Shown here one piece after another: positions 8,736-64,000 of a DNA stretch of 64,000 nt. Each line of letters opens with the position of its first letter. Position 1 is the stretch's first letter. The notes beneath the pieces were generated by a model. It was given only the letters and a program-made list of their open reading frames with translations. It was not told the DNA's origin and did not search any database. The translations under genes were made by a program, and so were the position numbers. The DNA is from Novosphingobium sp. SG751A (GTDB lineage: Bacteria; Pseudomonadota; Alphaproteobacteria; Sphingomonadales; Sphingomonadaceae): positions 62,001 to 126,000 of the forward strand of contig NZ_JABGCB010000011.1 in NCBI RefSeq assembly GCF_013149295.1. Direction: 5' to 3'.

Positions 8736-8742
8736 TTTTACG

Positions 8743-36042: not shown

Positions 36043-36474
36043 ATGAACGAACCGCATCTGGCCCGCATCCTGCCCCATGCCGCCCCGCTCGACGGCCCGC
36101 CGCGCGCGCTTCTGGTGGCGCTGCGCCGCATGGCGATTCACGGATTGTATGATGCCAGCGCGTCGCTGTTGATGTTCGAACATTTCGGGCTGCATTTTCG
36201 CAAACCGCTGGTGCTGATGCGCGCGCTGTTGATGGAAGTGTCGCAGACTACGCGCAAGCCGATCCAGATCGCGCCCTGCTGCGCCTCGCGTATGACGCCG
36301 GCGGAAAATGCACTGCTGCGCGCGATGACCTGCGCCGATCATGATCCGGCGCAGGCAGGGCAACATTTGCAGGATTTGACGCAGGCCCCCGCCATCGAGG
36401 GCCTGCTGGCCACCACGCGCGTGCTGGCCAGCGCCCTTCGCGATTCCGGGCGGGAACTCAGGGTCGAGGCTTAA
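36043..36474 (+). CDS. Small conserved-looking protein of unknown function
   Basis: A 143-residue protein with a clean ATG and no signal peptide. It has a mixed alpha-helical composition and a Cys-containing segment IAPCCASRMTPAENALLRAM. It resembles a small uncharacterised sphingomonad family that I cannot name with confidence (possibly DUF6628). Its stop overlaps the end of metZ by 4 bp on the opposite strand. Function cannot be inferred. Confidence 0.75.
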   Translation: MNEPHLARILPHAAPLDGPPRALLVALRRMAIHGLYDASASLLMFEHFGLHFRKPLVLMRALLMEVSQTTRKPIQIAPCCASRMTPAENALLRAMTCADHDPAQAGQHLQDLTQAPAIEGLLATTRVLASALRDSGRELRVEA

Positions 36475-37679
36475 AGGCCAATCGCCTTAAGCGCCCCGTC
36501 GAGGTCTTCCTTGAGGTCTTCCAGATCCTCAAGGCCGACGCTGATCCGGACCATGCCCTCGGTCACCCCCATCGCCTGACGAGTTTCGGGCGAGATCGAG
36601 GAATGGGTGGTGCTGGCCGGATGCGTCATCAGCGATTTGGTATCGCCGATATTGTTCGAAATATCGATCAGTTGCAGCGCGTTAAGCAGCTTCATCGCCG
36701 CCTCGCGCCCGCCATCGACCTCAAAGGAGAAGATCGAACCGGCGCCATACATCTGCTTCTTCACCAGATCATGCTGCGGGTGGCTTTCCAGCCCCGGATG
36801 CAGCACGCGCGGCAAACGCGCCTCCAGCCAGCGGCCCAGTTCGAGCGCCGCATCGCTCTGCGCCCGCGCGCGCAGTTCGAGCGTTTCCAGACCTTTCAGC
36901 ACCACCCAGGCGTTGAAGGGCGACAGCACATTGCCGGTGTTGCGCGTATAGGGGTGCAGGATCGTGTTGATGAAATTGGCATCGCCCGCCACCGCGCCCG
37001 CCAGCGTTCGACCCGAACCGTCCATCAGCTTGGTCGCGGCATAGGCCACCACATCGGCGCCATGATCCAAAGGCCGCTGCAAGGCTACGCTCGCAAAGGC
37101 ATTGTCCACCACCACGCGAATGCCGCGTTCCTTGGCGATCTTTGACACGCCCGCAATATCGACCAGATCCATCGTCGGATTGGCCGGGGTTTCAAAGAAG
37201 AACAGCTTGGTGTTGTCGCGGATCGCATCCTGCCACTGGTTCAGGTCGCGCCCGTCGATGGCCGTCACCTCGATCCCGAAGCGCGGCAACAGATTGTCCG
37301 TCACCCAGCGCGTCGGGCCAAAGGCGGCCTTGGCGATCACCATATGGTCGCCCGCCGAAAGCTGGCACAGCAGAACGCTCGACATCGCGCCCATGCCGCT
37401 GGCCTGACACCGGCACGCCTCGGCCCCTTCCATCAGGGCGATGCGTTCCTCCAGCATCTGCACGCTGGGGTTGGCGGTGCGCGAATAGGTCATGCCCGGG
37501 ATCTTGCCCGCGAAACGGTCGGCCACCGTTTCGGCCGTGTCATAGGCATAGCCCGAGGTCATATAGATGGCCTCGGAGGTTTCGCCCTGTTCGCTGCGCC
37601 ATGTGCCGCCGCGCACGGCCTGCGTCGCGCTGCGCCAGTTGCGGGTGATCTTGCGATCCTGTCCAGTGTCCCTTTTCAT
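36471..37679 (-). CDS. metZ: O-succinylhomoserine sulfhydrylase
   Basis: A PLP enzyme that makes homocysteine from O-succinylhomoserine and sulfide, for methionine synthesis. The 402-residue protein starts at the ATG at 37679; the frame to 37799 is not supported. Cys/Met-metabolism family marks are MTSGYAYDTAE, the cofactor region ASGMGAMSSVLL, the ETPANPTMDLVDI segment and the PLP Lys217 in YAATKLMDGSGR. GDTKSLMTHPASTTHSS closes the active site. MetZ is chosen over cystathionine enzymes by its sequence pattern; a side role in other thiol reactions cannot be excluded. Confidence 0.9.
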   Translation of the reverse strand: MKRDTGQDRKITRNWRSATQAVRGGTWRSEQGETSEAIYMTSGYAYDTAETVADRFAGKIPGMTYSRTANPSVQMLEERIALMEGAEACRCQASGMGAMSSVLLCQLSAGDHMVIAKAAFGPTRWVTDNLLPRFGIEVTAIDGRDLNQWQDAIRDNTKLFFFETPANPTMDLVDIAGVSKIAKERGIRVVVDNAFASVALQRPLDHGADVVAYAATKLMDGSGRTLAGAVAGDANFINTILHPYTRNTGNVLSPFNAWVVLKGLETLELRARAQSDAALELGRWLEARLPRVLHPGLESHPQHDLVKKQMYGAGSIFSFEVDGGREAAMKLLNALQLIDISNNIGDTKSLMTHPASTTHSSISPETRQAMGVTEGMVRISVGLEDLEDLKEDLDGALKAIGL

Positions 37680-37771: not shown

Positions 37772-39034
37772 ATGTTTGCAAAGCAACAGTCCGATCCATG
37801 GGCCTTCCAGATCCTTGTCACGCTGCTGTTTGCCGGGCTGGTTTTTCTGCGCCTGACCATCCCCTCGCATCTCTATTTTGACGAAATCCATTATGTGCCC
37901 GCCGCCCGCGCGATGATCGCCGGCCATCCGGCCAACCCCGAACACCCGATGCTGGCCAAGGCGATGATTGCCGGGTCGATCCGCATCTTCGGCGATAATC
38001 CGCTGGGCTGGCGGATGCCCTCGGCGCTGATGGGGGTGATCGGCCTGTGGGCCTTTGGCCGGGCCTTGTGGTACGCCAGCGGGCGGGCGATGGCCTCGGT
38101 GGCAGGCATGGTGCTGCTGGCCACGGATTTTGCCTGGTATGTGCAAAGCCGGATCGCGATGCTCGACATGGTGATGGCGGGGCTGGCGATGGTGGCGCTC
38201 TGGCTGATCGCAGGGGCGATAAGGCGAACGGATGGGGCGCGCTGGCGGATAGTGGGCGCGGGGCTCGTGCTGGGCCTGTCGCTGGGCGCAAAATGGAGCG
38301 TGCTGCCGGTCTGGGCGGTGGTCGTGGCTCTGGTGCTGGGCGCGCGGCTGTGGACCTTTGCCACCGGGGGGCGGCCGATCCTGCCCGCACTATCGATGGT
38401 CGAGCTGGGGCTTTGCCTGATCGTCCTGCCGCTGGGAGCCTATTGGCTGACCTATCTGCCCGGCTTTTTCACCGCGCGTGATGCGGTGCCCACGCTTGAT
38501 CCGCTAGGCTGGCATCGCCACATGATCGACCTGCAAAGCAGCGTGACCAAGCACCATCCCTATCAAAGCGTATGGAGCCAGTGGATCATCAACTGGCGCG
38601 CGATCTGGTATCTCTATGAAGTCACCGATGGGGCGCAGCGCGGGGTGATGCTGATCGGCAATCCCTTTACGATGATCGCGGGGTTGATCGCGCTGATCTG
38701 GGCGGGCTGGAGCGGGATGCGGCGCGGGGCATGGCTGCCGCTGGTGCTTGTTGCGCTCTATTGTGCATCGCTGGGTCTGTGGATCGTGGGCAACAAGCCG
38801 GTGCAGTTCTATTATCACTATCTGCTGCCCGGTACATTTCTGATGGGCGCGCTTGGGCTGATGGTGGATGAATTATGGGCCTCGCGGGGACAGCGCCGGC
38901 GGCACGAGGCCTTTGGTGTTCTCGTGCTGTCGCTGGGTGTCTTCGCCTGGTTCTTCCCCATCCTCTCGGCCGCAGCGCTGACCAAGGGCGTGGCCAGTTT
39001 CGAGGACTGGATGTGGCTGGCCAGTTGGCGGTGA
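37772..39034 (+). CDS. Dolichyl-phosphate-mannose--protein mannosyltransferase-like (PMT) membrane protein
   Basis: A 420-residue multi-pass membrane protein of the GT39 PMT family. After the first helix the conserved Asp37-Glu38 pair stands in YFDEIHYVPAAR, followed by NPEHPMLAKAMIAG, the classical PMT motif around residues 52-66. About ten helices follow, and the C-terminal LYCASLGLWIVGNKPVQFYYHYLLPGT is also typical. Such enzymes move mannose from a polyprenyl-phosphate to Ser/Thr of exported proteins. It converges with a polyprenyl-phosphate mannose synthase-like gene, 22 bp apart. Confidence 0.9.
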   Translation: MFAKQQSDPWAFQILVTLLFAGLVFLRLTIPSHLYFDEIHYVPAARAMIAGHPANPEHPMLAKAMIAGSIRIFGDNPLGWRMPSALMGVIGLWAFGRALWYASGRAMASVAGMVLLATDFAWYVQSRIAMLDMVMAGLAMVALWLIAGAIRRTDGARWRIVGAGLVLGLSLGAKWSVLPVWAVVVALVLGARLWTFATGGRPILPALSMVELGLCLIVLPLGAYWLTYLPGFFTARDAVPTLDPLGWHRHMIDLQSSVTKHHPYQSVWSQWIINWRAIWYLYEVTDGAQRGVMLIGNPFTMIAGLIALIWAGWSGMRRGAWLPLVLVALYCASLGLWIVGNKPVQFYYHYLLPGTFLMGALGLMVDELWASRGQRRRHEAFGVLVLSLGVFAWFFPILSAAALTKGVASFEDWMWLASWR

Positions 39035-39056
39035 TGGCACCAACTGGCCCGGCCTA

Positions 39057-40199
39057 TCAATTGCCGTATTTGCCCCAGACGAACTTGCTCGACAGCGCAA
39101 AGTTCCAAACAGAGGCCAGCACGATGCCCACCAGCACCGCGATCACATCGTGGATATGCATCCGCTTGAGCGCCGCTGTCGCGCCGATGTTGGTCAGCAG
39201 GCCCAGCGAACAGGTCAGCGCGAATTGCGCCCAGCCCTTGCACAATGGCCAGACCCCGCGCAAACGCTTGTCGGCATAGGTCAGTTCGTTGTTCAGCACG
39301 AAGTTGAACGTCATCGCGATCAACGCGGCAATGGTGTTGGCGATGTTGAAGGTCGTCTCGTCGCTCGACCAATGGCCATAGACGAAACGCTCGCCCAGAA
39401 ACACGCTGAGCACCAGCCAGAGCATCGCGAACTGCACCGCCACACCCAGCGCCCCCACCGTGCCGAACAGCGCGAAACGGGTGGGAATGATGCGGCCGAG
39501 CCACTTGTCGTAAAGACCGATCAGGAATTCAAACACAACCGTCCGATCCAGCTTGCTTTCGCCATCCGCACGGGCGGCAAAGTCGAGGGGAAATTCCTTG
39601 ACCCGCATCGGCGCGTCAACTGTGGCAAGAATGTCGAGCAGGATCTTGAAACCCACGCCCGAAAGGCGATGCGCATCGCAACGCAGCGTGGCCGTGGGCA
39701 GCATGAAATAGCCGCTCATCGGATCGGACAGGTCAACGCCCGTCACCTTGCGCGCGATGGAATTGGCAAAGCCGCTGGCCTTGACGCGATCGGGGCGCCC
39801 CCATGCCTCGGTGCTGGCGCCTTCGGCAAAGCGGCTGGCATAGGCCAGATCATATTCGCCTGATTCAATCGCCGCCAGCATGCCGGGCAGCAATTTGGGA
39901 TCGTGCTGATGATCGGCATCCATCACCGCGACAACGGGCGCGGCGGTGGCGCACATGCCCTCAATGGCGGCGCTGGCCAGACCGCGCCGCCCGATGCGCT
40001 GGATGCAGCGGATGCGGGGGTCTTCCAAAGCGATGGCGCGCGCTTCGTCGGCGGTGCCGTCGCGGCTGTTGTCATCGACGAAGATCGCCTCCCACGCGAT
40101 GCCCGCCAAGGCGGCATCGAGCCGCGCCACGAGCGGGCGCAGATTGCCCCTCTCGTTCAGCGTGGGCATGACAATGGCAAGTTGCAGAGTCTGAACCAT
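39057..40199 (-). CDS. Polyprenyl-phosphate mannosyltransferase (DPM1-like) fused to GtrA domain
   Basis: A 380-residue fusion. Residues 1-235 form a GT2 enzyme with MPTLNERGNL, VDDNSRDGTAD and the DAD metal site at 94-96 (VMDADHQHD), followed by DPMSGYFM and FPLDFAARADGESKL as in dolichyl-phosphate mannose synthases. Residues 245-378 form a GtrA-type module with four helices, ending FKF-like (SSKFVWGKYGN). The enzyme would load mannose (or another hexose) onto undecaprenyl phosphate, and the membrane part may help transfer or flipping. It converges with the PMT gene. Confidence 0.92.
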   Translation of the reverse strand: MVQTLQLAIVMPTLNERGNLRPLVARLDAALAGIAWEAIFVDDNSRDGTADEARAIALEDPRIRCIQRIGRRGLASAAIEGMCATAAPVVAVMDADHQHDPKLLPGMLAAIESGEYDLAYASRFAEGASTEAWGRPDRVKASGFANSIARKVTGVDLSDPMSGYFMLPTATLRCDAHRLSGVGFKILLDILATVDAPMRVKEFPLDFAARADGESKLDRTVVFEFLIGLYDKWLGRIIPTRFALFGTVGALGVAVQFAMLWLVLSVFLGERFVYGHWSSDETTFNIANTIAALIAMTFNFVLNNELTYADKRLRGVWPLCKGWAQFALTCSLGLLTNIGATAALKRMHIHDVIAVLVGIVLASVWNFALSSKFVWGKYGN

Positions 40200-40348: not shown

Positions 40349-41407
40349 TCAAAGGCGTTCAAGCACCGCATCGCCAATCGCGCTGGTTCCGGCATCGCCG
40401 CCCAGATCGCCACCGCGAATGCCGTCGGCCAGCGTCTTGGCCACCGCCGCCTCGATCCGCGCGGCCTGCGCCTCAAGGCCCAGCGAATGGCGCAGCAGCA
40501 TCGCGGCCGAGAGGATCGTAGCCATCGGATTGGCCTTGTTCTGGCCCGCGATGTCGGGGGCGCTGCCGTGGATCGGCTCATACAGGCCCACGGTGCCATA
40601 TTCGGTCTGGCGCGTGCCCAGCGAGGCGCTGGCCAGCAGACCGATCGAGCCCACGCACATGCTGGCCTGATCCGAGAGGATATCGCCGAAAAGATTGCCG
40701 GTGACGATCACGTCGAACTGGCCGGGCGACTTGACGAGCTGCATCGCGGCATTGTCGACATACATATGGCTCAGCTCGACATCGGGATATTCGGCCGAAA
40801 CCTCGATCACCACATCGCGCCACAGCTGGCTGGTTTCCAGCACATTGGCCTTGTCCACGCTGCACAGCTTGCCCTTGCGGCCCTGCGCGGCCTTGAAACC
40901 GGCGTGCGCAATGCGGCGCACTTCGTCCTCGGCATAGGACATCATGTCCCAGCCCTGACGGCGGCCATCCTCAAGAGTGCGCATACCCTTTTCACCGAAA
41001 TAGACGTCACCGTTCAGCTCGCGCACGATCAGCAGATCGATCTGGCTGGCAACTTCGGGACGCAGCGCCGAAAAGCCTTCGAGGCCGGGGAAGAGCGTGG
41101 CCGGACGCAGGTTGGCGAACAGGCTGAGTTCCTTGCGCAGGCCCAGAATGGCCTGTTCCGGGCGCAGCGCGCGCTCCAGATGGTCGCAGGAAAAATCGCC
41201 CACCGCGCCAAACAGGATGCCGTCCACAGAACGCGCGATGTCCTTGGTCGCCTCGGGCAAGGGATGGCCATGCTTGTAATAAGCCGCGCCGCCCACATCG
41301 CCTTCAACCATTTCAAGCCCGGCAATCGCCAGCTTGTCCAGCACGCGAACGGCCTGTGCCGTCACTTCGGGGCCGATGCCGTCACCGGCGAAAACCGCAA
41401 TCTTCAT
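40349..41407 (-). CDS. leuB: 3-isopropylmalate dehydrogenase
   Basis: The third enzyme of leucine synthesis, converting 3-isopropylmalate to the 2-keto acid with NAD (EC 1.1.1.85). It is 352 residues, standard length. Family marks are [19 protein letters not shown], the substrate loop [14 protein letters not shown] and [10 protein letters not shown], the [13 protein letters not shown] metal site, and [24 protein letters not shown] near the C-terminus. The start is preceded by AGAGG. It sits 16 bp after recO on the same strand; other leu genes are not in the window. Confidence 0.96.
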
Positions 41408-42168: not shown

Positions 42169-43008
42169 ATGCGCAACAGATTGACAGTTTTGACAGCCTT
42201 GCTGCTGGCCGCGCCCCTCATGGCAGCGGCGCTGACGACACAGCCCGCCATGGCCCAGATGGGCGGCATGGGGGGAATGGGCGGCGGCGGAATGGGCGGT
42301 ATGGGAGGCGGTGGCGGCATGGGTGGCCGTCATGGCGGCGGCGACATGGGCGGCCCGCCCGACGGTGGCGCCCCGCGCGGCGGCGCGCCACGGGACATGA
42401 AGCCCATCCCGCTGAAAAAATACGAAGCAGCGGTCGAATCCATGTTCCGCGCGGCGGACGCCAACAAGGACGGCATGGTCACGCTGGCCGAATTTGAAAG
42501 CGTGATTACCGCGCGGCGCAATACGCTGATTCACAAGCGCTTTGTCGATGTGGACGCCAACCATGACGGGCGCATCGACGAGGGCGAATTCATCGCCTGG
42601 GAAAGCCGCAAGAGCAGCGCGGAAATGGCCGAGGATGGCGGCGAATTTGCCGAAATCGTGCCTGACGCGATCTTCCCCGATCTGGGCGAAGGCGAACGCG
42701 ACATGGCGCTGCGTCTGGCGGTCGAACCGCTGGGCCCGGTGGCGATCGCCAAGGCCAATGTCGATTATGACGCCGGGATCAGCCTGGCCGAATTGCAGGC
42801 CTATGAACGCGCCCGTTTTGACAAGGCCGACACCAACAAGGACCTGTTCCTGAGCCGCGAGGAGATCGAGGCGATGCGCGGCGGACGCGGCATGATGCCG
42901 CCGATGGGCGGCGGACGCGGACGCGGCGGCGCAGGCGGCGGTATGGGGGGCAGCATGGGCGATGGCCCGCCTCCCGGCATGCCCCCGATGGGCGGCGGCG
43001 ACAATTAA
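42169..43008 (+). CDS. Exported EF-hand protein with Gly/Met-rich tracts
   Basis: A 279-residue protein. The signal peptide (residues 1-29) ends QPAMAQ. Residues 30-75 are a Gly/Met-rich tract (GGMGGMGGGG type), and another such tract with Pro ends the protein. Between them lie EF-hand loops: DANKDGMVTLAE, DANHDGRIDEGE, a degenerate DYDAGISLAE, and DTNKDLFLSREE. It probably binds Ca2+ in the periplasm. Gly/Met tracts could mediate contacts or bind metal; that is conjecture. A hairpin separates it from the convergent DUF418 gene. Confidence 0.85.
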   Translation: MRNRLTVLTALLLAAPLMAAALTTQPAMAQMGGMGGMGGGGMGGMGGGGGMGGRHGGGDMGGPPDGGAPRGGAPRDMKPIPLKKYEAAVESMFRAADANKDGMVTLAEFESVITARRNTLIHKRFVDVDANHDGRIDEGEFIAWESRKSSAEMAEDGGEFAEIVPDAIFPDLGEGERDMALRLAVEPLGPVAIAKANVDYDAGISLAELQAYERARFDKADTNKDLFLSREEIEAMRGGRGMMPPMGGGRGRGGAGGGMGGSMGDGPPPGMPPMGGGDN

Positions 43009-52126: not shown

Positions 52127-55100
52127 TCACCAGCGCAGCGCGATGCCTGCGCGCCCGGCCACGCCATGGGCCTTGCTGCCTTCAACCACATCGACCTTGG
52201 CAAAGATCGACAGGCCGCTCGTGCGTGCGCCCTGAATGCCCGCCTCGATCCGGGCCCGGCCGCCTTCCGATGCATCGGCAAAATCGACGCCCGTCCCGCC
52301 CGAGGAGAGGAGCGCATGGCCCTGACCCGACAGTTCGCCTTCCCAGCCGACGCCGACATAGGGGCGCACCACCCAGTTGGCCGACTTGGTTTCAACCCCC
52401 GCCCGCAGGCCGACCCGGCCATAGGCGCTGCCATTGTTGGTGAACTGCACCGCCATGCCGCCCGCGCCGCCGGTAAAGCCGTCCAGATCGGTATGCGTGG
52501 CCGAAATGCCCGCCGAAGGCTCGAAGAACATCGTGCCCGAACGCAGATGCGCGCCCACCTCGACATTGGCGCCATAGGTGGTGCCGTTGAACGAAGGCGC
52601 CGAGGCAAGGCCGTTGAAGTTGTAATTCACGCTGAAGCGATCAACCTTGACCAGCACGTTGGCATAGAGCCCTTCCTGCGAGAGCAGCCGCAGATAGGCG
52701 CCGACATTGCCGCCCTTGATCTTGATCTGGTCGCTCGTGGCGTTCAGCCTGCCGGTCTGTTCGCCATAGCCGCCCGTCAGGCCCACGCCCCAGCTCTCGC
52801 GGCCCAGTTGATAGCCGATCTGGACGCCCTGCCAGGTGTTGCGAATGTCCAGATTGGGGTTGAAGCCAACCGATTTGCCCAGCACGGTCAGATTATAGAC
52901 CGGCGCCGATTTGTCGGTCTGGCCGCCGCCATAGACCTGCATCCACATCGAATTGCCCCGCGACAGATCGGTGGCGCGAACCTGTTCGGCCCATGTGTCG
53001 CCCGACCGGCGCCAGAACTTCTGGGCCTGGGCCGCGGTGCGCACCAATTCAAACGCCGCCGCCGAGGGCAAGCCGACAAGGTTCCAGTTCGACCCGGAAT
53101 CCTGCGCCAGCACATATTGGACAAAGCCCTTGTTGATCGGCCCTCCCTGCAGCGCATAGGCCCCTGACGAGGACGCGCCATTGGTGACCACGCGGATGCC
53201 GTTGAAATTGAACTGTCCCGCCTGCGCGGCGCCAAGGTCGTTGATGACGATGGTGGTGGTGCCGCCGCTGGCCCCGGTGGTACGCAGCATGTCGGCGCTT
53301 TGCGCAGCGCTGACGCCCACGGCCGCCACGCCCAGATTGGCGTCCAGCACCAGCTTGCCCGAGGCGCCCGTCACTGCCGCCCCGCCCACATCCAGCACAT
53401 CGCCCGTATGGCCATTGGCCAGCGAGATCGTGCCGCTGTTGGTGATCGAGGTCAGGTTGAGGAAACGGGCGGTGGAGGCCGCGACCGCCGCCGGGTTGAT
53501 ATTGATCGTGCCCGAATTGTTCAGCGTCGATGTGCCGCCAAAGGTGGTGTCACCGCCAAAGGCGTTCCATGTGCCGCTGTTGCTCACGGTATTGCCCGCG
53601 CTCGACAGCGTCATATAGCCGTTGATCGTGCCCTTGTTGACCAGCGTGACCGCCCCGCCCGACAGCAGCACGGCGGCATTGTTGCCAGCGCCCACAATGC
53701 CCGACAGGGTGACGCTTTGGCCCCCGGCGGCGGCCGAACTGATGCCTGCCGTCGCGCCCGTGATCGTGGCCGAGGTCGCCGCGCTGCCCAGATTGATCGT
53801 GGCCGTGCCCCCGGTGTTGATGCTCAGGCCCGCCCCGGTGCTGCTGCTGGTCGCGCCGCCATCGGCCAGATTGACCGTGACATTGCCGCCCGTCGATGAA
53901 ACGGCAATCGCGTTCGCGCCCGTGGCGGTGGTGGTTTTGGCCGCAATGGTGATCGCGCCCGTCCCGCTGTTGGCATAAATGCCGCGCCCGCCGGTGGCCC
54001 CGGTGGTGGTGGCGTTGATGCCAATCGTCCCGGCCCCGGTGTTGACCGCGCTGATCGCATCGCCGCCCGCCGCGCTCACCGTGGTCGAGGTGATCGCCAC
54101 CGCACCGCCTGCCCCGGTCGCATCAATGCCCTTGCCCGCCGCTGTGGTCAGGTTCCAGTTGGCGATGGTGATCGGCCCCGCGCCGGTGGCCACGATGCCC
54201 TCGCTGCCGCTGCCCGAAACGGCAATGGTGGCGTTGTTGGTGATCGTGCCCGCGCCATTGGTGGTGGCCAGAACCACGCCATGCGCGCCCGCGCCCGTGG
54301 TGGTCACGCCGCCCGTATGCGACGCAGAACCCAGTGTGAGGCCGGCCGCGCCGCTTTCCGATCCGGTGATCGCAATGCCGGTCGATCCCGCGCCGGTGGT
54401 GCTCACCGACTGGATCGTTGCGGCAATCGTGCCGGTGGTGCCTGCCGCATTGCTCTGGGCCAGATTGACGCCGATGGTGGCGGGCCCGGTGGTGGCGACC
54501 GTGTTCAACGTGGCGCTGATCGCCCCGCTGGTGCCGGTCTGGGTCAGGCTGACGCCATTGCCGCCCGTGGCCGAATTGGCCGTGATGCCGGCCGCATCGA
54601 TCAACGTGATCGCGCCATTGCCCGAAAGCGAGACGCCATTGGCCGTCGCGCCCGTCGAGGTGGCCGAAACCGTGCCCAACGTCACATTCTGCGCGCCGGT
54701 CTGGCCAGTGCTGTAAACGCCGTAGGCATCGCCCGCGCTGGTAACAGTCACATCTGGCGGATCGATGGTCAGGCCCGCGCCATTGACCGCCGAAATGCCA
54801 TAGGCCGCACCCGTATTGGCCGCCGCCTTGATCAGGATGCCCGCCGGAACATTCACGGTGGTCATGCCCGTCGCGCCCGACAGGTCCAGCCCATAGGCAT
54901 TGCCCGCGCCCGTCGCCGTCGCGGTCACCGCCTTGGCCACCGAAACCGTGACATCAGCCCCGTTCAGCACCTGAATGCCGGTGGCCACACCCGAACTGTT
55001 GCTGACCGTGACCGTATCGGCGGCGGTGATCGCCACCGATCCGCTGGCCAGACGGCTGCGCAAGCCATAGGCTTCAGCATTGGCGCCGCTGACGGTGACA

Positions 55101-58100
55101 GCCTTGGCCGTGCTGATCGTGTGCGTCGTGCCGTCAATCAGCGAAAGACCATAGGCCGACCCCGCCACCGAGGTCACATTGATCGGACCACCGGCGGTAA
55201 AACCGGCCGCGCCGCTGCCGCCATTGAGGGAAGCACCGACTGCCTGACCATTGGCCGAAACCGTCAGCGTGCCGGTGACACCCGCCGATTTCGCCGTACC
55301 CCCGGTCAGCAAGATGCCCCATGCGTTGTTATTGGCGACCGCATTGTCAGCCGTCACCGACAGGTCGCCGGTGACATTGACGCTCTGGCTGCCCGCGCCG
55401 GTCATCTGCACGCCATAGGACGTGCCGCTGCCGCCTGTCACGCTCAGCCCGGCGTTGATGTTGGCCGTGCTGCTGGTGCTGTTGGTGGTCAAAACGCCGG
55501 TAGCGCCGGTGCTGGTGTTGGCAACGGTAAAGCCCGCCTTGGTGGTGATAAGCCCGGTGGCCGATCCCGTCTGCTGCAGGCCGATGGTGCTCCCGCCCGC
55601 GCCATTCACGCTCAGCGCATCATTCAGCGTGATCGTCTCGCTCGATCCGCCCGACTGGATGATGCCCCATGCGCTGCCGCTGGTGGTGGAAACGGCGATG
55701 GCGCCGGTGCCGGTAAAGGTGGTGGCATCCGTACCGCCGAATTGGCGGAAGCCGTAAGTGCCGCTGGCCGTACCCGAAATGGTGGCGCCGTTCAGAACGG
55801 TGATCGTCTCGCTGGTGCCGCCCGTCTGTGCCGCGCCTGCGGCCGAACCGCCGCTGGCCGAGACCGAAAGGCCGCCGTTGAACGCGATCGATGCCGCCCC
55901 GCTGCCGCCGCTGGTGGCAAAACCGCCCGCGAAAGTCACACCCTGAATCGTCACCGCGCCATTGAGCGTGATGGATTGCGAGGTGCCCCCGAAATCCTGC
56001 CCGCCGATGGCCTGGCCGCTGTCTGCGGTGACCGACCATGCGCCGTTGGCCACGGTGGTCATGGCGCCCGCGCTGAACAGGTTCTGACCGTTGGAGACGC
56101 CCCCGCCATGGACATTGAGCCCCTTGGCATAGGTGGTGCTGGCGCCGGCGCTGCTCGACACGGTGACGCCATTCGCTCCGGCGGTGCCCGATGTCACGGT
56201 GAATGTGTCATTGGCGTTGAGCGTCAGCGCGGCGCTCGAGCCGCTGGTCAGCACGCCATTGGCCGTGCCGCCCGTCGAGCCGACCGAAAGCGCCTTGGTA
56301 AAGGTCAGCGTCTGGGCCGAGCCGCCCGAGGCCGAAACGCCGGTGGCGTTGCCCGTACCGCCGGTGACGGTGAAGATATCCGAAGCGGTGAAATTCTCCG
56401 CCCCGCTGGCCCCGCTCATCGTCGCGCCCGTGGCCGAGGCGCCCGTTACCGTGCCACCCTGAGTCAGCGCGATGGTCTGATCCGTGCCGCCCGTGGTGCT
56501 GATGCCGCTGGCCGCGCCCGTACCGCCCAGAACCGAAAGCGCGCCATTGTCGGTAAAGCTGACCGCACCCGTGCCGCCGGTCAGCGCCGCGCCTGTCGCC
56601 CCCGTGCCCGTCACCGACAGGCGGCTCACCGTGGCCGAAGCGCCGCCGCCCGCGTTCAGGCTGATGCCGGTGGCGCTGCCCGTGGTGCCATCCACCGTAA
56701 AGGCGGCATTGCTGGTCAGCGTATCATTGCCCGACTGGGCGGTGGTCGCCCCGGCGCTCACGCCCGTTGCGCCCACACCCGTCACCGACAGGCCCCTGGC
56801 CAGCGTGATCGCGCCATCGGTGCCGCCATCCAGCGTGATGCCCGTGGCTGCGCCGCCGCCATTGGCGGTGTTGGTTACCGAAAAGCTCTGGCCCAGATTG
56901 ACCGTTTCGGTGCCGGTGGCGCCCGAAATGGCGATACCGCCCGCCGTGCCGCCATTACCGCCGCCGATCACCGCGATGTTCGCGGCAACCTCGTTGGGTG
57001 CGTCAAAGGCCGTCGTTATCTGAACGCTCGATCCGCCCGACACCGACACACCGCTGGCATTGCCCGCCGTGCTGGTCACCGAGAGCGAGGCCCCGGTCAG
57101 CGAGACATCCACCGCGCCGCTTGCCCCGCTCAGCGCGATGCCGGTGGCATCCCCGCCCGCCTGAACCGTAACATCGCCCGAATAGAGCGTGCTGCCCGGC
57201 TTGGCATCGCTGAAATGGACGGTCTGGGTAGTGCCCCCGCTCAGGGTTGCCGCAGTCGCGCTATGGCCCGCGCCCGCGGTCAGGCCGATCGCTACGCCCG
57301 AATTGTTGAGCGTCATCGCCCCGGTGGCATTGGCCACGCGAAAGCCGATGACATCCGCGCCCGTCACGGTCAGGCTTGTGCCGCCCGTTACGGTCTGGGT
57401 GTTGTTGAGCGTGACGCTGGTGCCATGCTGAACGTCCATGCCGATGGCCGTGCCCGTATCCGAAGCCACCGCCAGCGATCCGGTGTTGGTCAGCGTTGTG
57501 GCCCCGCCCGCGCCCGCATTGTTCACCAACATACCCGTGGCCGCGCCCGACCCGCTATGTACGCTCACGCTGCCCGAATTGGTCAGCGTGGCCGCGCCCG
57601 CATTGGCGATCACATTCATGCCCGTCAGCGCCACCGTGCCGCGCACATCGAGCGAGACAATGCCGGTGTTGTTGATCGAAAGCGTTCCGCCGCTGGCATA
57701 GGAACCGGCGGCAAGGCCGCTGAACGCGCCGGTGGCGGTGGCGTTGGTCAGCGAGATTGCGCCATTGTTGACCACGCTGGCCGACCCGCCCTGCGCCAGC
57801 GCGCCATAGACCGTGCCCGAGGAAGGGGTGAGCGTGACCGAGCCGTCGCTCCGGTTGATAACCGAGCCCGCGCCCGCCGCCCCGCTGGTGTCGCCAAGGG
57901 CCAGCAGGCCGCCGGTCTGGGCGGCAAGGATGCCGTGGTTGTCAATCGAGGCGGTGCCTGTGCCCGAGGCCAGCGCCTCTGCGGCAATGCCCGTATTGGT
58001 CACATGCGCGCCCGCACGCAGCGCGATCTGGGCCGCATTGCCGCTCGAACCGGTTACCGATACCGCAGCCCCGGCCAGATTGGTGTTGACCACCGCCGTG

Positions 58101-58321
58101 CCGTAAATGTCGATCTTCAGCCCCGCCGGGGTAGCAAAGCTGTTCTGATCATAGACGATGCCGTTCTGATAGCTGGTCGGATCCGATATGCAGGACACCA
58201 CATTGGGGTTCTGCGACGTATCGGGGATGCCGCAGGCCCCGACCGGGGCCGCCAGCGCGGCTTGCGGCGTGAAAAGCATCAGCGCCATTGCCGAAGCTCC
58301 GCTCTTCAGGACATTTTTCAC
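52127..58321 (-). CDS. Giant autotransporter 1 (type Va secretion)
   Basis: A 2064-residue type Va autotransporter. The start is the GTG at 58321, after GGGGGAGA. A signal peptide (residues 1-24, ending PQAALA) and an early Cys pair (GACGIPD, VSCISD) lead into a repetitive passenger of about 1760 residues. It is rich in Gly, Ala, Ser, Thr, Val and made of 30-40-residue units such as VTGGTGAASGIS and FTVTSGTAGANGV, which should form a beta-helix. The last ~275 residues (from about 1790) are the outer-membrane beta-barrel, ending ALRW. It could serve adhesion; no protease motif seen. Confidence 0.93.
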   Translation of the reverse strand: MKNVLKSGASAMALMLFTPQAALAAPVGACGIPDTSQNPNVVSCISDPTSYQNGIVYDQNSFATPAGLKIDIYGTAVVNTNLAGAAVSVTGSSGNAAQIALRAGAHVTNTGIAAEALASGTGTASIDNHGILAAQTGGLLALGDTSGAAGAGSVINRSDGSVTLTPSSGTVYGALAQGGSASVVNNGAISLTNATATGAFSGLAAGSYASGGTLSINNTGIVSLDVRGTVALTGMNVIANAGAATLTNSGSVSVHSGSGAATGMLVNNAGAGGATTLTNTGSLAVASDTGTAIGMDVQHGTSVTLNNTQTVTGGTSLTVTGADVIGFRVANATGAMTLNNSGVAIGLTAGAGHSATAATLSGGTTQTVHFSDAKPGSTLYSGDVTVQAGGDATGIALSGASGAVDVSLTGASLSVTSTAGNASGVSVSGGSSVQITTAFDAPNEVAANIAVIGGGNGGTAGGIAISGATGTETVNLGQSFSVTNTANGGGAATGITLDGGTDGAITLARGLSVTGVGATGVSAGATTAQSGNDTLTSNAAFTVDGTTGSATGISLNAGGGASATVSRLSVTGTGATGAALTGGTGAVSFTDNGALSVLGGTGAASGISTTGGTDQTIALTQGGTVTGASATGATMSGASGAENFTASDIFTVTGGTGNATGVSASGGSAQTLTFTKALSVGSTGGTANGVLTSGSSAALTLNANDTFTVTSGTAGANGVTVSSSAGASTTYAKGLNVHGGGVSNGQNLFSAGAMTTVANGAWSVTADSGQAIGGQDFGGTSQSITLNGAVTIQGVTFAGGFATSGGSGAASIAFNGGLSVSASGGSAAGAAQTGGTSETITVLNGATISGTASGTYGFRQFGGTDATTFTGTGAIAVSTTSGSAWGIIQSGGSSETITLNDALSVNGAGGSTIGLQQTGSATGLITTKAGFTVANTSTGATGVLTTNSTSSTANINAGLSVTGGSGTSYGVQMTGAGSQSVNVTGDLSVTADNAVANNNAWGILLTGGTAKSAGVTGTLTVSANGQAVGASLNGGSGAAGFTAGGPINVTSVAGSAYGLSLIDGTTHTISTAKAVTVSGANAEAYGLRSRLASGSVAITAADTVTVSNSSGVATGIQVLNGADVTVSVAKAVTATATGAGNAYGLDLSGATGMTTVNVPAGILIKAAANTGAAYGISAVNGAGLTIDPPDVTVTSAGDAYGVYSTGQTGAQNVTLGTVSATSTGATANGVSLSGNGAITLIDAAGITANSATGGNGVSLTQTGTSGAISATLNTVATTGPATIGVNLAQSNAAGTTGTIAATIQSVSTTGAGSTGIAITGSESGAAGLTLGSASHTGGVTTTGAGAHGVVLATTNGAGTITNNATIAVSGSGSEGIVATGAGPITIANWNLTTAAGKGIDATGAGGAVAITSTTVSAAGGDAISAVNTGAGTIGINATTTGATGGRGIYANSGTGAITIAAKTTTATGANAIAVSSTGGNVTVNLADGGATSSSTGAGLSINTGGTATINLGSAATSATITGATAGISSAAAGGQSVTLSGIVGAGNNAAVLLSGGAVTLVNKGTINGYMTLSSAGNTVSNSGTWNAFGGDTTFGGTSTLNNSGTININPAAVAASTARFLNLTSITNSGTISLANGHTGDVLDVGGAAVTGASGKLVLDANLGVAAVGVSAAQSADMLRTTGASGGTTTIVINDLGAAQAGQFNFNGIRVVTNGASSSGAYALQGGPINKGFVQYVLAQDSGSNWNLVGLPSAAAFELVRTAAQAQKFWRRSGDTWAEQVRATDLSRGNSMWMQVYGGGQTDKSAPVYNLTVLGKSVGFNPNLDIRNTWQGVQIGYQLGRESWGVGLTGGYGEQTGRLNATSDQIKIKGGNVGAYLRLLSQEGLYANVLVKVDRFSVNYNFNGLASAPSFNGTTYGANVEVGAHLRSGTMFFEPSAGISATHTDLDGFTGGAGGMAVQFTNNGSAYGRVGLRAGVETKSANWVVRPYVGVGWEGELSGQGHALLSSGGTGVDFADASEGGRARIEAGIQGARTSGLSIFAKVDVVEGSKAHGVAGRAGIALRW

Positions 58322-58406
58322 AGCAAGTCTCCCCCTGATGCGTCGAGGCCGCAGCCCCAAAAGATGTTGGGGGCACGACGGCCCCCGTTAAGTGTCGAAA
58401 GCATCA

Positions 58407-61400
58407 TCACCACGCGACCCGGAAACCGGCCTGTGCGGCGAAATTGTGGTAACGGGCGGCCATCGTGCTGCCCAGATTGAAGCGGAACTGGACATTGCCG
58501 CGCGTCACCGCGCCGCGCAGATCCAACCGTGCCGCATCCGCAGGCGCCGAGGCGCCCAGCGTCTCGAAGCTGTAGTCAGGCACCCCGGCAAAACCGGCCA
58601 TCAGCGAACGCTGCGGATCAAAGTCATGCGACCATGCCGCCTTGCCCGCCAGCGTCAGAGTGGTGCTGCCGCCCAGATCGAAGTTGCGGCCCAGATCCAC
58701 GCCCGCAAAGGTCCGGCTGCGCACCATCGCCTCCTTGCCAAAGCCCAGCCCCAGCACCCCGGCCGTTCCTGCCGTGGTCGTCGAGGTTTCGTTGAAGGAA
58801 GGCACCGACAGGCGCGTCACATCCAGACTGGCGAAGGGACGCATCTGCAGCGAACCGGTCACGAAATTGCCGGTGATCTGCATCCGGCCCGACAGCGCCT
58901 TCATGGTAAAGGCCCCGCGCGCCAGTTCGCTGGTCCCGGGCAGCGCCATCGAGCGCGTATAGGTCGTGGCATAGTTGCTGTAGACCAGATCGGCCCCCAG
59001 CGACAAAGGCCCGACATTTGTGCCCAGATAGCCGCCCGCGCTGAACGAAGTGATCCGTCCGCCCGTGCCGACCCCGCCCACGCGGAAGTTCTGCGGATCG
59101 CCCGCCACGCTGATCCCGGCCACGGTGTTGCGGCCAAGGCGGATATCCCAGCCGCCCTGAAGGGCATAGCCGTTGGTCTCCACATCATGCGTGCCATTGG
59201 CCCCGCGCACGGTTTCATTGCCGCCCGTCATGGTCAGCCACAGATTGCCGAAGCGCTCGATGGGCTTGCCCGGACCACCATCCAGCAGGCGCGATTCACG
59301 CTGAAGCGAAATCGCATCGTGGAAATTGGTCGAGACGGCAAAGGCCGCCGTCTTGGCCGCCACCACGCCCTCCCCGCTCAGACTGTCATAGACCGCGCCC
59401 AGCGTGGATACCGTCGGGATCGTCATGATCGTGGCGGCGGTCGGCGCAAAGGCGGCGGTCGGATTGGTCTGGATGCGGTTGATGAGCTGCCCCAGCCGCG
59501 CCTGCTGGGCGCTCAGCCCGTTTGGCGCGAATTCGATGACGTAATGCAGCGTCTCGTCATTGGCGTTGGGATAGGTCAGGCTATAGCTGGCCACCGCCGA
59601 ATTGGGCGCCACCAGCGTCAGCCCGGCATGGCTGGTAATGCCGCCCGCCGCCCGCAGGATCACGATGTCATGCGCGCCCGATTTGGCATAGCCCGGGTTC
59701 ATCACATTGACATTGACCGTGCCCGCCAGAGCCGCCGTGCCCGATACCGTGACCAGATCGGCGGTGTTGGTGCGCGCGTCGAAATCGCTGCGATAAAGGC
59801 TGGTGCCTGTGGTCGCCAGATTGCCGGTAATGGCCAGCGTTTTAACCACATTGGCCCCGCCCGGATCAATCGTGCCGCTGTTGAAGAACGTGCCCGAGCC
59901 CAGATTGACCAGCGGCCCGGCCAGGAACACCCCGCCCGCAACGTTGGTCAGGCTGTTATTGCCCGAACCCAGATCAATCGAACCGACGATCGTGCCGGTG
60001 TTGGTGATGGCATTGTTGCCCCCGGTGGCGGTGATCACCATGCCGGTCTGGCCATCGGCCGTGGTCAGCGTGCCCGCCGTGGTGATCGTATTATTGGCCC
60101 CGCCATGCAGTTGCAGCGCATTGCCGCCCTTGCCGCCGGTGATGGCCACGGTGCCGATGGCGATGTTGATCGCCCCCGCGCCGCTGCCGCCCTCGCTGCC
60201 TACAACCAGCGCCGAAGAGCCATTGCCCGTGGTGACGACCGGCGCATTGACCGTCAGGCCCACCGCGCCGCCCGAACCGATCCCGCCCAGCGCGACCGAC
60301 GTGTTGCCCACAAGGCCGCCGCCGCCGCCGATGGACTGCACCACCACGCCATTGGCCTTGGCCCCGGTGGTGGTGATCGCGCCGCCGACGGTCACGCTGG
60401 TCGCGCCGCCATTGCCGCCGCCGCCCGCCGCCGTCTGGACCGCAAGGGTCTGGACCGCGCCGCCGGCGTCCGTTGCCATGGCATTGCCGCCGCCGCCGCC
60501 GATGGATTGCACCAACAGGCCGGTTGCCCCCGCCCCGCTGGTGGCGATGCCGCCCGAGGTGGTCAGATTGACCGCGCCGCCATTGCCCGATGCGCCATTG
60601 GTCGAACCCAACACCAGAGGCGCCGAGACCGTCGAGCCAAAGCTGTCCACCGTGCCGCCGCCGCCGCCGATGGACTGCACCGAAACGCCGCCCGCACCGA
60701 TGCCGGTGGTGGTGACATTTCCGGCAAGGTTGAAGCTGATCGCCCCGCCATTGCCGCTGGCCGCGCCGCCGATGCTCGCGCCCGAAACCGCGCCGCTGCC
60801 GCCGGTGTTATCCATGGCCGAAACGCCGCCGCCGCCGCCGATGGATTGCAGCGAAACGCCGCTCGCGCCCGCGCCGGTGGTGGAAATGGCCCCGTTCTGG
60901 CTCAGCGTGATCGCCCCGCCATTGCCGCCCGCGCCGCCCGTTGCGCCCGAGGCCAGCGTGATGCCGCCCGCGCCAATCGCCGCGCCGTTCAGCGAGGTCG
61001 CATCGGCCACGCCGCCGCCGCCGCCAATCGACTGGACCACCAGACCCGAGGCCAACTTGCCCGTGGTGCTGATCGCGCCGGTCGATGTGGTGAAGGTGAT
61101 GTCGCCGCCATCGCCCTGTGTGGTCTGCGATCCGCCCGTGGCCAGATTCATGGCCGAGGCCGAACCTGTGGTCACACCCAGCGCCAGCGAACCCACGCCG
61201 CCGCCGCCGCCAACGCTCTGCGCCAGCAGGCCATAGGCCGAAATGCCTGTGGTGCTGATCGCGCCGGAATTGGCGATGGTGACCGACTGGCCGCTGCCCG
61301 CCGAGGTGGAGGTGCCGCCGACCGTCGTGGTCCATGCCGAATTGCCCGACCCCAGCGTGACATCGCCCGTCACGCCCTCAATGCCGCCGCCGCCGCCAAC

Positions 61401-64000
61401 GCTCTGCGCGACAAAGCCGATGGCCCCCGCGCCGCCGGTGCCGATGGGATTGGCATTGGTCAGATCAACGACATTGCCATCGCCCGTGACCCCGCCGCTG
61501 CCGCCGACCGCCAGCGTGACACCGCCCCCGCCCACCGAGAGCGGATCGGGCACCGAGATCGCGCCATTGCCGCCGCCCGCGCCAATCGCCTGCGCCAGCA
61601 AGCCATAGGACAAAGCGCCCGCCGTGCGGATCGTGCCGCCCGACAGATTGACAATGACCTGACCCTGCGTGCCGGTAATACCATTGCCCTGCGCGCCAAG
61701 GCGCAGGCTGAGCGCGTCGAACGAGCCGGTCTGAGCCGCGATGGCAAAGGCCGACTGGCCGCCGCCGCCCGCGATGGATTGCGCCAGCACCGCGACCGAA
61801 TCGTCGCCCAGCGTGGTGATCGAACCCGTCGAAGTAACGGTGACATTGCCGCCGTTGCCGCCCGCGCCGCCCGAACCGCCAAGCTGGTTGCCCAGCGTGC
61901 CGCCCGATGCGGCAAGGCTGCCCGAAAAGCCGCCCGCGCCGCCGCCGCCGCCGATCGACTGGGCCAGAACGCCCACCGATGCCGCGCCTTCGACCACGAT
62001 CGATCCGGTGTTGCTCACCGTCACCACGCCGCCGTTGCCGCCGCCGCCGCCCGCGCCGCCCAGCGCCGAGGTCAAACCGCCGCTGCCTTCGGCCAGAGTG
62101 CCCGACACCGCCATGCCCGCAACGCCGCCGCCGCCGCCAACCGACTGGGCAAACACGCCATAGGAAAGGTTGCCCTTGGCATTGATCAGGCCGCTGTTGG
62201 TGATGGTGACATCGCCCGCGCTGCCGCCTGCGCCGCCCGTGCCGCCGATCGAGGTGGCCGTGCCCGAGCCCGAAGAGCCCGAACCGGCAATCGAGAAGCC
62301 GCCAAGGCCGCCGCCGCCGCCCACGCTTTGCGCAAACACGCCGATGGAATTGTCGGACAGCGTCTGAACCAGCCCGGTGTTGGCCACCGAAACCACGCCG
62401 CCCGTGCCGCCGCCGCCGCCTTCGCCGCCGACCGATTGGGCAATCGCCCCGCCGCTGCCGATGGTCAGGCCGCCCGCAAAGCCGCCCGCGCCGCCGCCGC
62501 CGCCCACGCTTTGCGCAAACACGCCCACCGATCCCGCGCCCTTGGCCTGCACCGCGCCGTCATTGGTCACGCCCACAAGGCCCCCATCGCCGCCGCCGCC
62601 CCCGGCGCCCGCGCCAAGGCTGGAATTGGCCGAACCACTGGTGGCCAGCGTACCGGTCACGGCAAAGCCGCCCTTGCCGCCGCCGCCGCCCACGCTCTGA
62701 GCATAGACGCCATAGGAGAGCGCGCCATCGGCCACGATGGTCGCCCCGCCGGCATTGCTGACGCTGACCGCGCCGCCTTCGCCGCCGGCCCCGCCCATGC
62801 CGCCAATCGCGTTGGACAGGCTGCCCACGCCGCCGCCCGCCGCCAGCGAGAAGCCGCCGACACCGCCGCCGCCGCCGATGCTCTGGGCATAGACGCCCAC
62901 CGCATTTGCGCCGCCGGTATGAATCTGGCCCGTGTTGGTGATGCTCACCGCGCCGCCCATGCTGGCCGCACCGCCGTCGCCGCCAATGGCCGAGCCGAAC
63001 GTGCTGCCGCCCGCCGCGCTGAGCGCACCGGCAAAGCCGCCCGCGCCACCGCCGCCGCCCACCGACTGGGCAAAGACCGCGATGGCCCCTGCGCCTTCGG
63101 TGTCCACCGTGCCCGCGTTGGTCAGGGTGATCGCGCCGCCGATACCGCCGCCGCCGCCCGCGCCGCCGCCGATGGTCGAGCGCGCATCGCCGCCCAGCGC
63201 CACCGTGCCGCCCGCCGCAAAGCCGCCATTGCCGCCGCCGCCGCCCACACTCTGCGCCTGAATGCCATAGGCAAAGGCGCCCAGAGTCGAGATCGCGCCC
63301 GCGCTGCTGTTGGTGATGGTGATAGCGCCGCCAAGCCCGCCTGCCCCGCCGCTGCCGCCGATCACATCGGCCAGCGAACCGGCCTGCGAAGCGCCGGCGC
63401 CCACGGCAAAGCCGCCCACGCCGCCGCCGCCGCCGATGCTCTGCGCCAGAATGGCGCTGGCCATCTGGCCGCTGGTGGCCACAATACCGCTGTTGTCCAG
63501 CGTCAGGACGCCGCCTGCCCCGCCAGCCCCGCCAGCCCCGCCAACGCTTGAACCAAGCGCCTGACCCGAAGCCGCGATGCCGCCGCCCGCGGCAAAGCCG
63601 CCCGCGCCGCCGCCGCCGCCGATGCTCTGTGCAAAGACCGCGATGGAATCGTCGCCCGCTGTGCCGATCTGGCCAAGGTTGGACAGCGTGACCGCTGCGC
63701 CCTTGCCGCCAGCGCTGCCGCCGCCGCCGCCAACGCTTGATGTCGCATCGCCACCAAGGGTCAGCGCACCGCCTGCGGTAAAGCCGCCCGCGCCGCCGCC
63801 GCCGCCAACCGACTGCGCAAAGACCGCGTAGGACAGCTTGCCCGTGGTGGAAATTTTGCCATCCGCCGCGTTGGAGAGCGAGACGAGGCCGCCATCGCCG
63901 CCGCCGCCGCCCGTGCCGCCCACGATATTGGCCGCGCTATCCGCCTGCGCGCCCGCGCCGCCCACGGAGAATCCGCCAGCACCGCCGCCGCCGCCCACGC
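58407..64000 (-). CDS. Giant autotransporter 2 (partial, N-terminus beyond window)
   Basis: At least 1864 residues visible; the 5' end is cut off. The passenger is built from about 20 units with the signature QSVGGGGGxGGF, spaced 62-63 residues, each also carrying a beta-strand pattern like VTLSNLGQI. The units get less regular towards residues 700-1100. The last ~270 residues form the barrel, ending FRVAW. Autotransporter 1 starts 85 bp after its stop on the same strand, so both probably share a transcript. A surface adhesin or matrix protein is a reasonable guess. Confidence 0.93.
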   Translation of the reverse strand, partial: VGGGGGAGGFSVGGAGAQADSAANIVGGTGGGGGDGGLVSLSNAADGKISTTGKLSYAVFAQSVGGGGGAGGFTAGGALTLGGDATSSVGGGGGSAGGKGAAVTLSNLGQIGTAGDDSIAVFAQSIGGGGGAGGFAAGGGIAASGQALGSSVGGAGGAGGAGGVLTLDNSGIVATSGQMASAILAQSIGGGGGVGGFAVGAGASQAGSLADVIGGSGGAGGLGGAITITNSSAGAISTLGAFAYGIQAQSVGGGGGNGGFAAGGTVALGGDARSTIGGGAGGGGGIGGAITLTNAGTVDTEGAGAIAVFAQSVGGGGGAGGFAGALSAAGGSTFGSAIGGDGGAASMGGAVSITNTGQIHTGGANAVGVYAQSIGGGGGVGGFSLAAGGGVGSLSNAIGGMGGAGGEGGAVSVSNAGGATIVADGALSYGVYAQSVGGGGGKGGFAVTGTLATSGSANSSLGAGAGGGGGDGGLVGVTNDGAVQAKGAGSVGVFAQSVGGGGGAGGFAGGLTIGSGGAIAQSVGGEGGGGGTGGVVSVANTGLVQTLSDNSIGVFAQSVGGGGGLGGFSIAGSGSSGSGTATSIGGTGGAGGSAGDVTITNSGLINAKGNLSYGVFAQSVGGGGGVAGMAVSGTLAEGSGGLTSALGGAGGGGGNGGVVTVSNTGSIVVEGAASVGVLAQSIGGGGGAGGFSGSLAASGGTLGNQLGGSGGAGGNGGNVTVTSTGSITTLGDDSVAVLAQSIAGGGGQSAFAIAAQTGSFDALSLRLGAQGNGITGTQGQVIVNLSGGTIRTAGALSYGLLAQAIGAGGGNGAISVPDPLSVGGGGVTLAVGGSGGVTGDGNVVDLTNANPIGTGGAGAIGFVAQSVGGGGGIEGVTGDVTLGSGNSAWTTTVGGTSTSAGSGQSVTIANSGAISTTGISAYGLLAQSVGGGGGVGSLALGVTTGSASAMNLATGGSQTTQGDGGDITFTTSTGAISTTGKLASGLVVQSIGGGGGVADATSLNGAAIGAGGITLASGATGGAGGNGGAITLSQNGAISTTGAGASGVSLQSIGGGGGVSAMDNTGGSGAVSGASIGGAASGNGGAISFNLAGNVTTTGIGAGGVSVQSIGGGGGTVDSFGSTVSAPLVLGSTNGASGNGGAVNLTTSGGIATSGAGATGLLVQSIGGGGGNAMATDAGGAVQTLAVQTAAGGGGNGGATSVTVGGAITTTGAKANGVVVQSIGGGGGLVGNTSVALGGIGSGGAVGLTVNAPVVTTGNGSSALVVGSEGGSGAGAINIAIGTVAITGGKGGNALQLHGGANNTITTAGTLTTADGQTGMVITATGGNNAITNTGTIVGSIDLGSGNNSLTNVAGGVFLAGPLVNLGSGTFFNSGTIDPGGANVVKTLAITGNLATTGTSLYRSDFDARTNTADLVTVSGTAALAGTVNVNVMNPGYAKSGAHDIVILRAAGGITSHAGLTLVAPNSAVASYSLTYPNANDETLHYVIEFAPNGLSAQQARLGQLINRIQTNPTAAFAPTAATIMTIPTVSTLGAVYDSLSGEGVVAAKTAAFAVSTNFHDAISLQRESRLLDGGPGKPIERFGNLWLTMTGGNETVRGANGTHDVETNGYALQGGWDIRLGRNTVAGISVAGDPQNFRVGGVGTGGRITSFSAGGYLGTNVGPLSLGADLVYSNYATTYTRSMALPGTSELARGAFTMKALSGRMQITGNFVTGSLQMRPFASLDVTRLSVPSFNETSTTTAGTAGVLGLGFGKEAMVRSRTFAGVDLGRNFDLGGSTTLTLAGKAAWSHDFDPQRSLMAGFAGVPDYSFETLGASAPADAARLDLRGAVTRGNVQFRFNLGSTMAARYHNFAAQAGFRVAW

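Follow-up and report, generated by a model that had tools for sequence, protein, structure and literature searches.

The window analysed here is a 64,000-nucleotide stretch of DNA from Novosphingobium sp. SG751A (contig NZ_JABGCB010000011.1, positions 62,001 to 126,000, forward strand). It carries a gene for an enzyme of the protein O-mannosyltransferase (PMT) type, belonging to glycosyltransferase family GT39, which faces a gene for a GT2 domain fused to a GtrA membrane domain (Table 1). A preliminary description of this DNA had proposed a PMT-type enzyme with Asp37-Glu38 and NPEHPMLAKA and, 22 bp away, a convergent DPM1-like GT2-GtrA fusion. Both proposals are borne out, the former by the open reading frame (ORF), Pfam matches, fold and residues, and the latter by the coordinates, the matches to PF00535 and PF04138, the match to structure 5mlz and the donor site. 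The pair is flanked by leuB-recO on one side and by metZ-apaG on the other.

Table 1. Features of the PMT/GT2-GtrA locus, in positions of the window
Feature	Positions	Strand	Basis
PMT (GT39-type, 420 aa, without MIR domain)	37772..39034	+	PF02366 and PF16192 above cut-off; PDB profile search; AlphaFold2 model
Asp37-Glu38 codons, DE motif of GT39 enzymes	37880..37885	+	invariant in 22/22 and 56/56 rows; corresponds to D77-E78 of yeast Pmt1
Loop and predicted beta-hairpin H262-P298, counterpart of the WW-like C-terminal segment of EL4 in Mycobacterium tuberculosis PMT	38555..38665	+	alignment, column counts, model strands
22-bp spacer separating both convergent stop codons	39035..39056	.	ORF coordinates
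GT2 domain (polyprenyl-phosphate mannose synthase-like) and GtrA membrane domain, 380 aa	39057..40199	-	PF00535 and PF04138; 5mlz match; donor-site residues kept
metZ (O-succinylhomoserine sulfhydrylase-like), conserved PMT-side flank, divergent from PMT	36471..37679	-	library matches, conserved neighbour; start 37679 chosen from homology (37799 in the ORF list)
leuB (3-isopropylmalate dehydrogenase), conserved synthase-side flank	40349..41407	-	TIGR00169, 445.2 bits, above cut-off

A PMT-type enzyme and a GT2-GtrA synthase

The first protein scores above the Pfam cut-offs with PF16192 (PMT_4TMC; 36.9 bits, cut-off 32.4), PF02366 (PMT; 35.2, cut-off 22.7) and PF13231 (PMT_2; 30.8, cut-off 26.1), and NPEHPMLAKA corresponds to its residues 55-64. 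Two alignments were used, A1 with the window PMT and 21 relatives (22 rows), and A2 with 56 sequences, which served for an AlphaFold2 model. PF02366 and PF16192 both match 22/22 PMT relatives at E<=0.01. This domain content is the same as that given for bacterial PMTs in PMC8147084, namely PMT and 4TMC with no MIR domain. A search of the PDB with the single sequence (phmmer) returned no match at E<=1, and the A1 profile had two hits at E<=10, one to yeast Pmt1 (4.2e-12) and one to 9i5k, a Pmt4 chain from Chaetomium (1.4e-6). These matches cover the first and last parts of the protein, although Pmt4 matches the last part only weakly. The protein is also similar over its full length to PMT-like ORFs from Nocardia, Tsukamurella and Arthrobacter, with 420 aa against 547 aa in Nocardia and 612 aa in Arthrobacter (stop-to-stop lengths, hence upper bounds).

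The AlphaFold2 model is confident (mean pLDDT 92.8, 56 sequences). When it was compared with known structures by Foldseek, PMT chains occupied ranks 1-7 and ArnT came next (E 6.8e-12 for PMT, 2.8e-6 for ArnT). The fold of fungal Pmt1, Pmt2 and Pmt4 (6p25, 9i5k, 9i5l, 9e61 and 9e6i) is shared over the whole length, VIA-align giving for these five entries Z 35.0-37.5 over 406-410 of the 420 residues with rmsd 2.8-2.9, against Z 26.2, 340 residues and rmsd 4.3 for ArnT. As modelled, the window enzyme is a PMT-type GT-C transferase, predicted to be closer to PMTs than to ArnT. An identity as an ArnT-like (GT83) lipid A transferase was rejected, as both fold and sequence favour the PMTs and ArnT is absent from the profile search at E<=10.

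Catalytic residues are well conserved. In the A1-profile alignment, D77, E78, R138 and D189 of yeast Pmt1 align with D37, E38, R81 and D132 of the window PMT, and H555, S559 and W564 are retained as well; unlike the fungal enzymes, the window PMT has no MIR domain and carries Trp at the position of Pmt1 P561. Invariant in 56/56 rows of A2 and 22/22 rows of A1 are D37, E38, R81, H262, W271, P298, K342 and also F346, and the second Asp, D132, is found in 56/56 and 21/22 rows, with one Glu. The PMTs of M. tuberculosis (MtPMT) and Corynebacterium glutamicum, likewise GT39 enzymes, share with it the PMT and PMT_4TMC domains, the absence of MIR, the DE motif of the first external loop and the second Asp (D74-E75 and D176 in MtPMT). 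According to PMC12331936, D74, D176, R441 and Y444 are required for MtPMT activity, and an R441K variant is nearly fully active. It should be noted that MtPMT positions were transferred by way of a Nocardia ORF and of the motif as that paper gives it, not through the MtPMT sequence. In the alignment with the Nocardia homologue, F346 stands at the Y444 position and K342 precedes R441 by one column (spacing K-x3-F versus Rx2Y/F). From this alignment, it is likely, but not secure, that K342 and F346 are the counterpart of the R441/Y444 pair in the fifth external loop.

The second gene matches PF00535 (Glycos_transf_2; 96.6 bits) and PF04138 (GtrA; 65.1 bits), both above cut-off. Its best match in the PDB is PfDPMS, the dolichyl-phosphate-mannose synthase of Pyrococcus furiosus (5mlz, residues 3-375, E 3.3e-45), and this match spans almost the entire protein, membrane part included. 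For 16 PfDPMS residues taken from PMC5526996, the printed alignment shows 13 identities and Ala in place of G122; R131 and S135 are off by one column and fit R138 and S142 of the window synthase after a one-residue shift. In 19/19 aligned synthases R138 and S142 are invariant at the same R-x3-S spacing, in contrast to the variable residues of the printed columns, so that conservation of the lipid-phosphate site is probable. The protein thus combines GT2 and GtrA domains with the donor-site residues of PfDPMS, including the mannose-contacting D89 and H94, and the acceptor-phosphate residues would be shared too. In contrast to PfDPMS, the window synthase is bacterial, and its carrier is presumably undecaprenyl or another polyprenyl. 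A candidate ManC-like protein encoded elsewhere in the genome could be the source of GDP-mannose.

Paired occurrence of the two genes

The family survey covered 249 genomes drawn evenly from Sphingomonadaceae, with a threshold of E<=1e-10 for a PMT match. PMT is present in 112 of them and GT2-GtrA relatives in 167 (E<=1e-10, distant paralogues included), and because relatives are so widespread both ORFs are real genes, not chance frames. Among the matches listed, from which low-ranking fragments may be missing, a GT2-GtrA protein with at least 50% identity occurs in 102/112 PMT genomes versus 3/137 PMT-less genomes; the three PMT-less carriers are a 70%-complete genome, an 84-residue fragment and a partial one. 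PMT and GT2-GtrA lie within 12 kb of each other in 96/112 PMT genomes, and 95 of these pairs are convergent. The median gap between the two matches is 28 bp, which is also the value for the window by the same measure. Similarly, a convergent synthase stands at 76 of the best 80 named loci (469 relatives found); it is absent at L053 and L082, and the stretches of L078 and L103 are too short to tell. A conserved third component between the genes was set aside, since the gap ORFs of seven longer-gap PMT loci are unrelated by eye (oxidoreductase-, transporter- and peptidase-like, with one glycosyltransferase-like ORF each in L035 and L036).

Nine PMT-less genomes were examined at leuB. In six of them, PMT and synthase are both absent from the leuB-metZ site, leuB directly adjoining metZ in three and about 1 kb of other sequence lying between them in three. 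In two more, metZ is outside the stretch read, and PMT and synthase are also not in the stretch. Usually, therefore, a genome has either both genes at this site or neither, at least one exception being genome G918. The gap of two PMT-less genomes is filled by a gene that resembles, by eye, a threonine/serine dehydratase gene (L136, 6970-7947; L138, 4853-5815). In G918, leuB, GT2-GtrA and metZ are consecutive (L134, G918:C2:38000-52000, positions 5959-9461); five other genomes of the same genus (g92) have PMT.

In the host genome (5.73 Mb, 75 contigs), a single gene matches PF02366, in two stretches of one frame. The closest named relative is Novosphingobium sediminicola DSM 27057 (L034), with a PMT 93% identical and a synthase 100% identical after rounding, followed by Novosphingobium sp. 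SG707 (90% and 98%). In Sphingomonas parapaucimobilis, the NCBI label of the PMT gene is phospholipid carrier-dependent glycosyltransferase, with a protein O-linked glycosylation term, and the GT2 gene, leuB and recO adjoin it. The record of this locus (L114, NZ_CP155756.1 120858-134015), which also holds uvrC and apaG, is titled a plasmid; it could instead represent a second chromosome, or a piece of the chromosome that was wrongly assigned.

Outside the family survey, PF16192 matches 7/385 alphaproteobacterial genomes (6 over cut-off, the seventh site being full of stops) and 25/398 Pseudomonadota genomes, 22 of them over cut-off (12 Sphingomonadaceae, 9 of the genus g359, and G789); the two samples overlap in several genomes. 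These counts are lower bounds, the window itself scoring only 38.8 bits against the cut-off of 32.4 there, and PF16192 was set aside as a census tool because a score so little above cut-off implies undercounting. In a control of 14 well-known genomes, PF16192 matches one, that of C. glutamicum, whose PMT is established (PMC11727336), and PF02366 alone matches 8. In a PMT tree, the 24 rows of sphingomonads and g359 stand apart from G789 and the two actinobacterial rows (95/95), and the g359 PMTs group with some sphingomonad PMTs (98/99). No claim of an actinobacterial origin is made, as the tree has a midpoint root, few outgroups and a single very long row. One record titled Actinobacteria bacterium 21-64-8 (L082, 7524-8789) has its PMT among the sphingomonad rows, beside Novosphingobium marinum (90/63), and shares their neighbour genes; it is probably a mislabelled record or a mixed bin.

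The acceptor hairpin and the proposed function

In MtPMT, acceptor recognition has been assigned to a WW-like hairpin, P359-x2-W362-x8-Y371-x20-L392-x3-P396 (PMC12331936). The window counterparts of these positions are W268, W271, Y280, L294 and P298, with predicted strands at 279-285 and 288-293 of the model. Hence, taking the residues as named in that paper, the positions of W362, Y371, L392 and P396 are shared, Trp replaces the first Pro, and the hairpin lacks the actinobacterial insert. Y280 is Phe in 2/22 and 5/56 rows and L294 is Met in 5/22 and 9/56, and Trp occupies the P359 position in 56/56 and 22/22 rows. A pattern scan that left this position free found Trp in 14/14 alphaproteobacterial loci (L118-L130 and L132), which represent 11 genomes, three genes being present twice. 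Pro is found there in both actinobacterial loci and in Pmt1 (P561). Among the scanned loci, P298 is replaced by Leu in the sphingomonad L126, and the residue matching Y371 is Phe in the g359 loci; the motif was not seen in either G789 locus. Mutation of P359 to Ala lowers MtPMT activity by more than 55% according to PMC12331936. Because the hairpin proline is Trp and the actinobacterial insert is absent, this PMT subfamily may differ from the actinobacterial enzymes in its choice of acceptor.

The families, the fold, the kept catalytic residues and the paired presence were computed directly. It is very probable that the donor synthase and the GT39 transferase work together, and the best reading, to which we give a fair but not a high probability, is that the pair puts mannose on proteins. 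The GT2-GtrA protein would use cytoplasmic GDP-mannose to form polyprenyl-phosphate-mannose, mannose being the likely sugar; both sugar and lipid are suggested by the kept active site. The lipid-linked sugar would then be presented at the periplasmic side, where GtrA may help, and the PMT would transfer mannose from the lipid to Ser/Thr of proteins while they are exported or afterwards, exported proteins being the presumed acceptors. By homology, Asp37 would be the base, as proposed for D74 of MtPMT.

The same donor pathway might serve another acceptor, with the GT39-like enzyme mannosylating a periplasmic glycolipid (sphingomonad glycosphingolipid), a lipopolysaccharide (LPS)-like lipid or an exopolysaccharide. 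This is unlikely. A mannose-bearing tetrasaccharide form of glycosphingolipid is known in Sphingomonas paucimobilis. Moreover, the hairpin proline is lost from the window PMT, the lipid A-modifying ArnT shares the wider fold, and PMC13318209 describes sphingomonad glycosphingolipids with hexuronic acid heads. However, in that same source the annotated glycosphingolipids of two Novosphingobium strains carry hexuronic acid, and an Sgt2-like homologue, of the type adding hexose in Caulobacter, is reported there. In fold and sequence the enzyme is clearly closest to protein O-mannosyltransferases, and A2 retains most of the other hairpin residues (H262, Y264, W271 and P298 in 56/56; Y280 with 5 Phe, L294 with 9 Met). 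Finally, no lipid or LPS gene is found among the conserved neighbours given names, several conserved clusters being without names.

It is still less probable that the pair handles another sugar, such as glucose, which would make GT2-GtrA a GtrB-like polyprenyl-phosphate-glucose synthase with proteins or lipids as acceptors. Synechocystis GtrB (sll0501) is indeed a relative, but a distant one (E 1.1e-7) when set against the nearly whole-length match to the mannose enzyme 5mlz, and the glucose-using GtrB has Asp where H94, kept here together with D89, stands in PfDPMS (PMC5526996). As for two genes that merely reside in a conserved chromosomal stretch without functional pairing, the synthase serving other transferases, synteny does reach metZ, leuB, recO and apaG, 31 PMT-less genomes carry a distant GT2-GtrA (40-49%), G918 has the synthase without PMT, and three PMT loci of g359 (see below) show no synthase match within 14 kb, but the joint absence of the pair from six sites whose flanks remain and the contrast between PMT and PMT-less genomes in the survey make this very improbable.

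Several observations weigh against protein mannosylation by the pair. The window PMT reaches 47.8 bits with the NCBIfam equivalog PrMnsylTfPmt (NF058602), for which 800 are required; it thus differs from the actinobacterial PMTs in this respect as well as in lacking the hairpin insert and in having Trp at the P359 position. In the sequence alignment, K342, the basic residue closest to R441, misses it by one column. The ManC-like match, which carries a flag for one TAA, stays below the cut-off of the bifunctional model (340.8 bits, with 372.95 needed). The survey genomes come from one family and are not independent counts, and linkage alone proves little, because conservation of the neighbourhood extends to metZ, leuB and recO. 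The question, raised in the preliminary description, of whether both genes always co-occur has a mixed answer: co-occurrence is strong and convergence is conserved, with exceptions. Ten of the 112 PMT genomes have no synthase of at least 50% identity, nine of them carrying a 46-48% identical GT2-GtrA elsewhere and G018 (85% complete) none. G918 has kept the synthase and lost PMT (no PMT match better than E 0.16 in the genome), and in G877 the two genes are about 100 kb apart. In the alphaproteobacterial genus g359 (family f171; genomes of 6-9 Mb), the GT39 enzyme shares the hairpin Trp, and it differs by the lack of any GT2-GtrA match in three 14-kb loci (L129, L130 and L132). Lastly, no glycoprotein or O-mannosylation study in sphingomonads was found in the literature, among the matches listed.

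Protein O-mannosylation is known best from fungi, animals and actinobacteria. According to a 2024 paper, GT39 genes are found in more than 3,800 bacterial genomes (PMC11727336). The same paper, whose experiments use actinobacterial enzymes, gives M. tuberculosis and C. glutamicum as the only sources of prokaryotic GT39 enzymes investigated, yet cites Streptomyces coelicolor mutants; all of these are actinobacteria. Literature searches on proteobacterial and cyanobacterial PMTs were unproductive, the cyanobacterial query giving only a paper on the evolution of N-glycosylation. The GT39 family is already known and annotated, and the sphingomonad pair with its altered hairpin is a variant of it. 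More tentatively, it can be proposed that alphaproteobacteria have their own protein O-mannosyltransferase subfamily, with Trp for the hairpin proline, to which sphingomonads add a dedicated GT2-GtrA synthase in a leuB-metZ block, and that this would amount to a periplasmic, Gram-negative O-mannosylation whose acceptor code does not rely on proline-rich linkers. With a compact pair, a single PF02366 gene and a linked synthase in a harmless host, O-mannosylation of exported proteins by such Gram-negative bacteria would become directly testable, and the same pair would allow a test of whether the hairpin proline sets acceptor choice.

Other genes of the window

Two giant Gly/Ser/Thr-rich ORFs lie on the minus strand, at 52127-58360 (2077 aa) and 58407-63998 (1863 aa as read, up to the end of the window). 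Ser and Thr make up 24.5% and 18.9% of their residues, and Pro 1.2% and 1.3%. No Pfam match was found for them at E<=0.001, and the name autotransporter, given to them in the preliminary description, is unconfirmed. That such autotransporters are acceptors of the PMT is conjecture, and these two ORFs were set aside as candidates: they have no link to the pair and no Pfam match, and are poor in Pro.

The metZ product scores below the NCBIfam equivalog cut-offs. A small ORF at 36043-36474 (plus strand), which adjoins metZ, matches DUF6628 (PF20333, 58.9 bits). Finally, the plus-strand ORF at 42169-43008 encodes a small Gly/Met-rich protein with EF-hand matches, the start of which resembles a signal peptide by eye.

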